From assembly GCA_030426085.1 (NCBI GenBank), contig JAUHYW010000016.1, forward strand, positions 1-64,000: a stretch of 64,000 bases of DNA. The letters run 5' to 3'. The DNA is from a bacterium. GTDB lineage: Bacteria; Myxococcota_A; Bradymonadia; UBA7976; UBA1532. A program made the position numbers and the translations under genes. Below the pieces are notes generated by a model. The model was not told the origin of the DNA, made no database searches, and saw only the letters and a list, made by a program, of their open reading frames with translations. Shown one piece after another: positions 2,181 to 8,788 of this stretch (the first letter of the stretch is position 1; each line of letters begins with the position of its first letter).

Positions 2181-3638
2181 ATGTACCTTCGCCGTCTGCA
2201 CATCCGGAACCTCAAGCTCATCGAGGACCTGACGCTCGACTTCACGCGCGACGGCGAGCCGCGGGGGTTGACGGTGCTGGTCGGTGAGAACGGCACGTGC
2301 AAGACCAGCGTATTGCAAGCCATCGCCCTGGCGGCGAGCGGCCGGGCCATCGCCGAGCGCGTCGGCGGTGACATCGCCGCCTCGCTGCCTCATATCGAGC
2401 GGACCGGCGAGGACGTGGAGGTGCTCGCCGAGTTCCAGATGGGGCCGATCGGGCATGACCTCGGTCGCTGGTATCCGGGAAGGGAGGAGGGGGAGCGCCC
2501 GGCCGGACCGCCGCTCGTATCAGCCGAGTTGAAGCTGCCCGGTGGTCGAAAGGATTTCGTATACCGGTCCTGGTACGGCGCTTGGGGTGAGCCGCAATGG
2601 GATGGCGTCGACTTCCTCATCGATGGGCAGGAAGGCCCGATCGGGGCTGTGCGAGCCGAACGTGAGCTGGTGCCCCATTGGTTCGTCGTCGGCTACGGCG
2701 TGCGCCGCAACCTGCCCGTGCCGGGCGGGGCCCCGGCGATCCGTGATCCGGTCGACGACCGTATCCGCCCGCTCTTCGGGCTCCGTGAGGTCACCGGAAC
2801 GGGCTTCGCCGACGCTTTGAACAGCCGCGAAGAGGACGACGAAGAGGGGACGCCCGGCGCTCGAGAACGAGACAGTGGGCAGTCGGGGTCCGCGAAGCGC
2901 AAGAAGCCGTCGAAGGGGGCGGCCGCGCGGCTGTTCGCCGACATCCTCAACGCAGCGTTGACCGAAGACGAGCACCTGGTGCCCGACATCAGGGGGCTCG
3001 AGCGCCGCGGCCAGGGCGGCGCCAAGTCGGCCGCGCAGCTCGCCGCGAGTCATCGGGTGGTCTTCACCGTCGATGACGAAGAGCTCAAGCTGCCCGCGGT
3101 GTGGCTCTCGGCCGGCTATCAATCGACCCTGGCCTGGATCTCGGACCTGATCGGCTGGGTGCTGTGGGAAGCGCGCGAAGGTGTTCCCCCCCACGAGATG
3201 GAGGGGATCGTCCTCGTCGACGAGCTGGACCTGCACCTGCACCCCACCTGGCAGGTGAGCCTGCCGCGCGCGCTGACCCAGGTCTTCCCCAACCTGCAGT
3301 TCATCACGACGACCCACTCGCCGGCGATCCTCGCGCAGCTCGACGACGACGAGATCATCCGCCTGGGCACCCGGCGGGGGCGGGTGGTGCGGGTCGAGAC
3401 CGGCGGCTCGCCGCGATCGAGCACCGCCACCGAGCTGCTGGACGACTACTTCGGCATCGACCGGCTGATCACCAACCCCGCCGGCGACGACCTCTGGCGC
3501 TACGCCGAGATCGCGACGAACCCCTACCGCAGCGACGCTGAAGACGCCGAGATGCGTCGGCTCTTGGATCGGTTGAAGTCGGCGAAGATCGATCCCGACT
3601 TGGAGCCAGAGCCGCGAATCACCGAGGAAGGGGCGTGA
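2181..3638 (+). CDS. ptuA: Septu anti-phage ATPase PtuA (AAA/OLD-type)
   Basis: 485 residues with the layout of an SMC/OLD-like ATPase. It opens with MYLRRLHIRNLKLIEDL, the usual start of RecF/AAA_21 proteins. The Walker A is GENGTCKT at residues 35-42, Walker B is IVLVDELDLHLHP near 340-352, and a TTHSP switch-histidine motif follows near 375. The middle (residues 210-260) is charged and low-complexity. The next gene overlaps it by 4 bases (GTGA) and encodes an HNH nuclease. That pairing defines Septu, in which the ATPase holds the nuclease and phage infection releases DNA cutting (family knowledge). Oddity: Walker A has Cys40 where nearly all P-loops have Gly, so nucleotide turnover may be slow. 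A related ATPase from a retron Ec78-type system is the main alternative, but no reverse transcriptase is present here. Confidence 0.85.
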   Translation: MYLRRLHIRNLKLIEDLTLDFTRDGEPRGLTVLVGENGTCKTSVLQAIALAASGRAIAERVGGDIAASLPHIERTGEDVEVLAEFQMGPIGHDLGRWYPGREEGERPAGPPLVSAELKLPGGRKDFVYRSWYGAWGEPQWDGVDFLIDGQEGPIGAVRAERELVPHWFVVGYGVRRNLPVPGGAPAIRDPVDDRIRPLFGLREVTGTGFADALNSREEDDEEGTPGARERDSGQSGSAKRKKPSKGAAARLFADILNAALTEDEHLVPDIRGLERRGQGGAKSAAQLAASHRVVFTVDDEELKLPAVWLSAGYQSTLAWISDLIGWVLWEAREGVPPHEMEGIVLVDELDLHLHPTWQVSLPRALTQVFPNLQFITTTHSPAILAQLDDDEIIRLGTRRGRVVRVETGGSPRSSTATELLDDYFGIDRLITNPAGDDLWRYAEIATNPYRSDAEDAEMRRLLDRLKSAKIDPDLEPEPRITEEGA

Positions 3639-4741
3639 TCCGCGTCTCGCGGGGTCCCGAACCCGAGCCGAAAGAGCTGCGTCGGGCGCGATACGAGAAC
3701 CTGCCGCTGATCCGCGCGAAGCGGGCCCGAGGGGAGGCGCTCGACCGCAAGACGGACTGCGTCGATTATCGCGCGGGCAAGGCGCGGCTGCATCAGACCC
3801 AGTACGGCCGCTGCGCCTACTGCGAGCGGCCGAAGGACGTCGGTGAGAGCGAGCTGGAGCATTTCCGCCCGTGGGCGTCGTACTGGTGGCTGGCCTGGAC
3901 GTGGACCAATCACCTCGTGGCCTGCAAGCGCTGCAACCGCAAGAAGGGCGATCACTTCGAACTGACCGACGAGGCCGCGCGGGCCACGGAGGAGGGCGAC
4001 GCCCTCGACGGCGAGGCGCCGCGCTTCGTCGATCCCGCGGCCGAGGATCCGCTGGCGCATATCCGCTTCGTACGCGTCGCCGGCAAGTGGACGGTGGTGG
4101 CCCGCAACGGCTGCCCGCGGGGCCAGTACACCATCGACAAGCTGGGCCTGCGCACGCTGGGCGACCGCTACCAGCGTTATTGGATCGGTGAGATCGCCGG
4201 CCGGGTGCGGGACGTGCGGGCAGCGATCTCCGCGGGCGAGACGCAGCGGGTGCATCGCCTGTGGAGCGGCGCGCTGCGGCGCCTCTTCCACCCGGAGGCG
4301 AAGTTCCAGGCGCTGGCCTACGACGCGCTCGACGCGGAGTTCCGGCGGCGGTGCGCGCCCGCTGGCGCCTCGACCTGCCCCGACCGGGCGCCGCGCCCGA
4401 TCCGGTGCACGCCGAGCCGTTCGTCGATGAGCTGTCTCCCGAGACCCGCGCGGCGGTGTATGTCATCCGGCAGAATGTCCCCGATTCGATGGGCGCTGCG
4501 CTCCTGGCACTGTGTCGCGAGCGGCCGATGTCATACGCCGATCTGTCGAGCTACGTCGGCCGCTCGATTGGCACGGTCAGAAAGCACGTTCGTCCGTTGG
4601 TGGAGGCCGGCCGCCTGCGCCGCGGGCGCCGCGGGCGAAGCGATGTCTTCGAGGCGGTGTAGTCGCCGGGCCGAGGGCCGCCAGGAGCAGCCGGCGGGAT
4701 CCGCAGCGCTATCGCGTCGACTCGATGGCCTCGACCGGTGA
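3635..4741 (+). CDS. ptuB: Septu HNH endonuclease PtuB, with an out-of-frame tail
   Basis: Starts at a GTG that overlaps the ptuA stop. Residues 1-238 are a convincing HNH nuclease of the PtuB/TIGR02646 type: zinc-knuckle pairs C60/C63 (RCAYCERP) and C97/C100 (ACKRCNRKKGDHF) around the ELEHFRP segment with H76. It should degrade DNA when released by PtuA. From about residue 239 (base 4350) the frame turns into a Cys/Arg/Ser/Pro-rich string without protein character. It ends only at 4741, overlapping the 3' end of the convergent lipoprotein gene. At the same point the -1 frame becomes clearly coding and gives a winged-helix domain. Either one base has been lost and the real protein is a PtuB-wHTH fusion, or the ribosome shifts frame, or PtuB was meant to end near 240. 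About 240 residues is the size I would expect of PtuB. The tail after about 4360 should not be trusted. Confidence 0.75.
   Translation: MIRVSRGPEPEPKELRRARYENLPLIRAKRARGEALDRKTDCVDYRAGKARLHQTQYGRCAYCERPKDVGESELEHFRPWASYWWLAWTWTNHLVACKRCNRKKGDHFELTDEAARATEEGDALDGEAPRFVDPAAEDPLAHIRFVRVAGKWTVVARNGCPRGQYTIDKLGLRTLGDRYQRYWIGEIAGRVRDVRAAISAGETQRVHRLWSGALRRLFHPEAKFQALAYDALDAEFRRRCAPAGASTCPDRAPRPIRCTPSRSSMSCLPRPARRCMSSGRMSPIRWALRSWHCVASGRCHTPICRATSAARLARSESTFVRWWRPAACAAGAAGEAMSSRRCSRRAEGRQEQPAGSAALSRRLDGLDR
4351..4662 (+). CDS. Winged-helix protein or domain, in the -1 frame of ptuB
   Basis: A GTG at 4351 opens a 103-residue frame with good codon use. The frame is already open from 4192, so fusion to PtuB by a -1 shift is equally possible. 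Residues 22-100 form a helix-turn-helix/winged-helix fold: an initial helix (ETRAAVYVIRQN), then RERPMSYADLSSYVGRSIG, then TVRKHVRPLVEAGRLRRGR, which reads as a recognition helix followed by a basic wing. This could be a repressor of the operon, or a DNA-binding arm that places the nuclease. No clear ribosome site precedes the GTG, which slightly favours the fusion view. Confidence 0.6.
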   Translation: MRARWRLDLPRPGAAPDPVHAEPFVDELSPETRAAVYVIRQNVPDSMGAALLALCRERPMSYADLSSYVGRSIGTVRKHVRPLVEAGRLRRGRRGRSDVFEAV

Positions 4742-6771: not shown

Positions 6772-6800
6772 TTGACACGGGGCCCCCGGTGCACACCCTT
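6772..6800 (+). promoter_or_regulatory. Candidate promoter of the hslVU-arg operon
   Basis: A perfect TTGACA (6772-6777), 17 bases, then ACCCTT (6795-6800), which is a weak -10. It lies 30 bases before the hslV start, inside a gap that follows the previous stop. No heat-shock-type element is obvious. Confidence 0.4.
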
Positions 6801-6830
6801 GGCCGAATTCAACGCGTCCGAGGTCGGCCG

Positions 6831-7384
6831 ATGAGCGCTCCCGTCTTCCATGGAACCACCATCCTCGCGGTGCGCCGCGGCTCACGGCTCGTATTCTGCG
6901 GTGACGGGCAGGTCTCGCTGCAGAACACGGTGATGAAGGGCCGGGCGATCAAGGTCCGCACCCTGCTCGACGGGCAGATCCTCACCGGGTTCGCCGGGGC
7001 CACCGCCGACGCGTTCACCCTGTTCGAGAAGTTCGAGGCCAAGCTCAAGGCGTTCAACAAGAACCTGGTCCGGGCCGCGGTCGAGCTGGCCAAGGATTGG
7101 CGCACCGATCGCTATCTGCGCCGGCTCGAGGCCCTGCTGCTCGTCGGTGACGCCGAGCGCACCCTGCTCATCTCGGGCACCGGCGACGTCATCGAGCCCG
7201 ACGGCGACGCCATCGCCATCGGCAGCGGGGGCAACTTCGCCCTCGCCGCCGCCCGGGCCCTGCTGGCCCACACCGATCTCGACGCGCGGGCCGTCGCCAC
7301 CGAGGCCATGCGCATCGCGGCGGGCATCGACATCTACACCAACGATCAGCTCGTGATCGAAACCCTGGACGCCGAGGACGCCCG

Positions 7385-7388
<4 letters not shown>
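6831..7388 (+). CDS. hslV: HslV, peptidase subunit of the HslUV protease
   Basis: 185 residues from the ATG at 6831. HslV is a proteasome-like threonine peptidase that forms a double hexamer and degrades proteins fed in by HslU. The catalytic Thr is in GTTILAVRR (residues 8-16). As the family uses an N-terminal Thr, the first eight residues (MSAPVFHG) must be removed, a short propeptide where E. coli HslV has only Met. The conserved [39 protein letters not shown] and YTND motifs are all present. It overlaps hslU by 4 bases. Confidence 0.97.

Positions 7389-8788
<1,400 letters not shown>

Follow-up and report, generated by a model that had tools for sequence, protein, structure and literature searches.

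The window, the whole stretch of 64,000 nucleotides (nt) analyzed here, is the first part of a contig of a Myxococcota genome, the phylum being assigned from named relatives. It contains a Septu operon in which the nuclease reading frame appears to be lost near its 3' end, while an overlapping -1 frame continues with a winged helix-turn-helix (wHTH) segment. The preliminary description left three readings of this arrangement: a PtuB-wHTH fusion with a frame break, one protein made by programmed frameshifting, or a third, overlapping regulator gene. We asked which of these the locus represents. The features are as follows:

2181..3638, plus strand: ptuA, an ABC/AAA ATPase of 485 amino acids (aa) with the Walker A motif GENGTCKTS and the motif DELDLHLHP (PADLOC PtuA; Pfam AAA_21/AAA_15)
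3635..4342, plus strand: ptuB core, encoding the HNH nuclease in 236 frame-2 codons from a GTG start (PADLOC; Pfam HNH)
4340..4345, plus strand: frame change of -1, from frame 2 to frame 1 (codon HMM; ungapped joined reading against L030 and L034)
4342..4386, plus strand: last part of the PtuB core, PAAVRARWRLDLPRP, read in the -1 frame; it aligns with the C termini of short PtuBs (L030, PTDVRIRWRLDLPRP)
4387..4662, plus strand: PtuB linker and wHTH tail in the -1 frame (Pfam HTH_24, tail profile, AlphaFold and PDB matches)
4343..4741, plus strand: frame-2 read-through, Arg/Cys/Ser-rich and not coding-like

Judged by its gene content, we take the locus to be a standalone two-gene Septu operon encoding a PtuA ATPase and a PtuB HNH nuclease. 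The ATPase open reading frame (ORF) matched PtuA in PADLOC (E=8.3e-46). The PtuB HNH nuclease gene that Septu requires adjoins it in the same operon, and the ptuA stop and the ptuB GTG start overlap by 4 nt (3635-3638). The PtuB ORF stays open from this GTG to 4741. Its PADLOC match (E=1.6e-32) has a best match that stops at residue 235, the Pfam HNH match (1.9e-5) is better than the cut-off, and the HNH/zinc residues were invariant in an alignment over 16 relatives.

Damage to the PtuA Walker A motif (2287-2312) was considered, given that Lys is preceded by Cys and not by the usual Gly (GENGTCKT), and was ruled out: the Cys is conserved in four close relatives (L032, L035, L042 and L056; GENGLCKT). 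Further PtuA-like ATPases show other residues in this motif (LYKT, HNKT). An association with a type I-A retron was also dropped; a motif scan that covered the first 9 kb of the window and a set of fused loci detected no reverse transcriptase-like [YF]xDD ORF.

The position of the frame change was determined in two ways, by codon usage and by homology. The codon HMM switched at 4342/4343, after residue 236, close to the point (about residue 238) up to which the HNH frame had previously been called convincing. Codon-phase G+C changed in the same region. Between about 4320 and 4400, the third position, which is rich in G+C, shifted from phase 1 to phase 0; the second position, which is low in G+C, shifted from phase 0 to phase 2. 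Up to about 4340 the PtuB pattern was seen (phase 1 G+C about 0.9, phase 0 about 0.5), and thereafter the -1-frame pattern (phase 2 G+C about 0.5) continued to the stop at 4662. The -1 frame is open at 4192-4662, with its stop codon at 4660-4662. The earlier account of this frame as open from 4192 and strongly coding from about 4350 was confirmed. The remainder of frame 2, previously described as Arg/Cys/Ser-rich noise, indeed does not look like coding sequence; its reading of the tail DNA scored about 0 bits against the tail profile described below.

Homology placed the break at the same point. When the two frames were joined there, the reading LDAEF|PAAVRARWRLDLPRP aligned without gaps with LDGLVPTDVRIRWRLDLPRP of the Paraliomyxa PtuB L030 and with IAAEFPADVRAAHGLTLSRP of L034. 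Frame 2 ends with ...QALAYDALDAEF and frame 1 resumes with PAAVRARWRLDLPRP; L030 has ...HALSYDVLDGLVPTDVRIRWRLDLPRP in one frame and with equal spacing. In the -1 frame, the conserved PtuB terminus PxxVRxRWRLDLPRP follows the break, and most members of the PtuB family of the window end within a few residues after LDLPRP. By this alignment, the -1 frame encodes the C terminus of PtuB itself, followed by the winged helix, and not a separate gene. Septu requires an intact PtuB reading frame, and here the frame is broken inside the conserved C-terminal end. We therefore name the locus a Septu operon with a ptuB that is frame-broken as assembled, and not an intact system.

The assignment of the tail as a wHTH, made in the preliminary description by inspection, was borne out by profile searches and by a structure model. 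Pfam HTH_24 matched the window tail with E=7e-5, better than the cut-off. A tail profile was built from eight in-frame tails (L034, L010, L011, L058, L031, L079, L043 and L044), with the window left out. It matched the -1 frame of the window with E=3.6e-10, the next best value over all six frames being 0.16. In leave-one-out tests, the window tail reached 1.2e-10, and six tails (L034, L010, L011, L058, L031 and L079) were recovered at 1.7e-7 or better. The L043 tail was weak (0.0018) and the L044 tail was not significant (0.076). The tails of L045 and L076 were marginal in the tail-profile tests, and all four of these tails are weakly linked to the rest. The C-terminal extensions are longer in the PtuBs of L076 and L045, at 190 and 162 residues, and are possibly other accessory domains.

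Modeled with AlphaFold from five sequences, the tail (106 residues) showed the order helix-helix-helix-strand-strand, with a pLDDT above 90 for the domain. Among solved structures, it came closest to ArsR/MarR regulators and to Zalpha domains, with Z 8-9.4 across some 60 residues; this likeness to ArsR/MarR-type and Zalpha winged helices is one of generic fold and does not imply a common function. The last 60 residues of the tail have a net charge of +6. A full-length model of L034 contained the same wHTH elements at residues 298-369, and a fold search with it gave weak wHTH-type matches. Because this model was poor over the HNH region, the placement of the wHTH on the nuclease was not predicted. 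In L031, L043 and L079, the tail stops at the recognition helix or shortly beyond it; thus, some tails are without a complete wing.

In total, 40 distinct full-length PtuB cores were collected. Most are short (29), ten have in-frame tails of 77-190 residues, and one, that of the window, is frame-broken. In-frame PtuB-wHTH fusions were found in L010, L034/L002, L011, L031 (Corallococcus sicarius), L058 and L079, and, with weaker matches, in L043 and L044. The genome of the window itself has a second Septu operon (L010, 1501-2679/L081; contig C100), in which PtuB-wHTH is intact in one frame, and the L034/L002 and L011 fusions are two operons of a congener. By homology to these fusion tails, the window tail belongs with the in-frame PtuB-wHTH subgroup. 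The alignment of homologous operons, including the paralogous operon of the same genome, showed one continuous PtuB-wHTH frame in the relatives, the outcome that had been expected of a fusion with a local break.

In the tree, fused and short PtuBs were interspersed, with five label changes and weak support. This is compatible with repeated gain or loss of the tail, and one origin of all fusions may also fit the weakly supported tree. The closest PtuB was about 45% identical, and a nearly identical copy was not found. The plasmid matches listed were below 35% identity, and the viral contigs searched gave remote HNH matches and nothing closer. In the same genome, contig C96 (L015) carries a third PtuA-like ATPase and a weakly matching PtuB-like ORF. 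On the 3' side of the second Septu operon (L010, 2730-3188), a stretch of about 200 bases (gacgcgggacggccgacgacgcgcgccccgcc...) seems to be directly repeated, adjoining the contig end.

Of the three earlier readings, the fusion with a frame break was the one supported. We are highly confident that this is the Septu system of a Myxococcota PtuB subgroup with a C-terminal wHTH, and that in this copy one frame change, at codon 236, takes the wHTH and the last ~15 residues of the nuclease core out of the PtuB frame. Programmed -1 ribosomal frameshifting would yield a short and a long PtuB from the overlapping frames. These frames are both open at 4192-4662, and so a shift would indeed give the full-length fusion. 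However, no XXXYYYZ slippery heptamer occurs between 4200 and 4741, and in the relatives the fusion is a single continuous frame, none of them keeping the frame change. This makes frameshifting a most improbable explanation. A three-gene Septu, with the wHTH as a regulator in its own right whose overlapping gene starts inside ptuB, is also very unlikely. A candidate start exists, GTG 4351 with GGAG 11 nt upstream, and the product would be a wHTH protein of 103 residues. However, the relatives are fusions and the PtuB frame does not stop at this point but continues to 4741. In addition, the residues directly after the break are the conserved end of PtuB itself, which argues against a separate gene starting there. 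As judged from the sequences compared, there is no support for a separate regulator gene as the ancestral arrangement; in the window copy, translation may also start internally, at GTG 4351.

The fusion with a frame break could be a property of the organism or of the assembly. In the latter case, the organism would have an intact PtuB-wHTH and the contig would be one base short. Several observations favor such a local assembly or sequencing error: the relatives are continuous in one frame, the frame change is single and isolated, the break lies in a G+C-rich stretch 4.3 kb from the contig end, and nothing else looks abnormal in PtuA or in the two parts of PtuB. Evidence against it is that the break has no homopolymer of 4 or more, and that the ptuB break was the one frameshift-like site detected in 464 kb of the genome of the window. 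With 91 simulated deletions added, the detector reported 48 sites; in the congener, it gave 4 candidates in 400 kb. The sole site in 464 kb rules out a generally indel-rich assembly and thereby favors a real mutation. We consequently lean towards a real loss or truncation mutation as the likelier origin of the break, and regard a local error as a substantial minority possibility.

Septu itself is known, and the PtuB-wHTH architecture appears to be new as far as the literature and structure searches reach. This upholds, within that range, the earlier suggestion of a novelty for Septu. The literature searched contained nothing relevant on a PtuB with an HTH or a C-terminal extension. Characterized Septu PtuAB systems (E. 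coli ATCC 25922; Septu Ec-B88, PMC13096335) resemble the window in the ptuA-ptuB operon and the HNH-type core, and PtuAB defense depends on the ATPase motifs of PtuA as well as on the HNH motif of PtuB (PMC13096335). In contrast, the solved or characterized PtuBs matched, including those in the PDB, are about 215-266 aa long and have no wHTH tail; the subgroup of the window adds a wHTH of ~100 aa, and the window copy is frame-broken. The best solved-structure match was PtuB of retron Ec78. Type I-A retrons such as Retron-Eco7 have the PtuA and PtuB effectors in common with this operon (PMC11555353), but their PtuB is without a wHTH, and the motif scan found no RT motif beside the window operon or its fused relatives.

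As read, the window operon would produce PtuA and a predicted PtuB core without its last ~15 conserved residues, extended by a scrambled tail of ~130 residues. In the intact copies, PtuA would assemble with PtuB and control the nuclease, as in known PtuAB. The tail probably functions in nucleic-acid binding; it may act as the DNA-binding arm or the auto-repressor of the preliminary description. Such a contact could aid recognition of a trigger or target, or could keep the nucleic acid-bound nuclease inactive. By analogy, the tail may plausibly sense or restrain: the msDNA of a type IX retron is bound by a winged-helix protein, and the toxin is triggered by a phage HTH protein mimicking it (PMC13405049). 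That retron, Kva2, is also a defense system in which a DNA-binding winged-helix protein controls a toxic effector. It differs in that the winged helix is a separate protein, the effector is of the HEPN type and the system is a retron, so it serves only as an analogy for a possible role of the tail (PMC13405049).

We tentatively propose, as a possible and still rather doubtful extension, that a Myxococcota branch of Septu uses the winged-helix arm of PtuB as a sensor or target selector that was repeatedly gained or lost. If true, Septu would have a module for recognizing nucleic acids, analogous to the type IX retron winged-helix protein. The target choice of Septu is unsettled, with reports of PtuAB systems cutting either nicked DNA or tRNA-Tyr (PMC11555353). 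A domain of the nucleic-acid-binding type built into the nuclease subunit, present in some members but not in close relatives, would offer a handle on target selection. The window copy illustrates that one frame change can cut the tail off and leave the other parts of the operon open. Downstream of the operon, at 6789-8788, lies a putative hslV-hslU-like pair, predicted to encode the HslVU peptidase and its ATPase.
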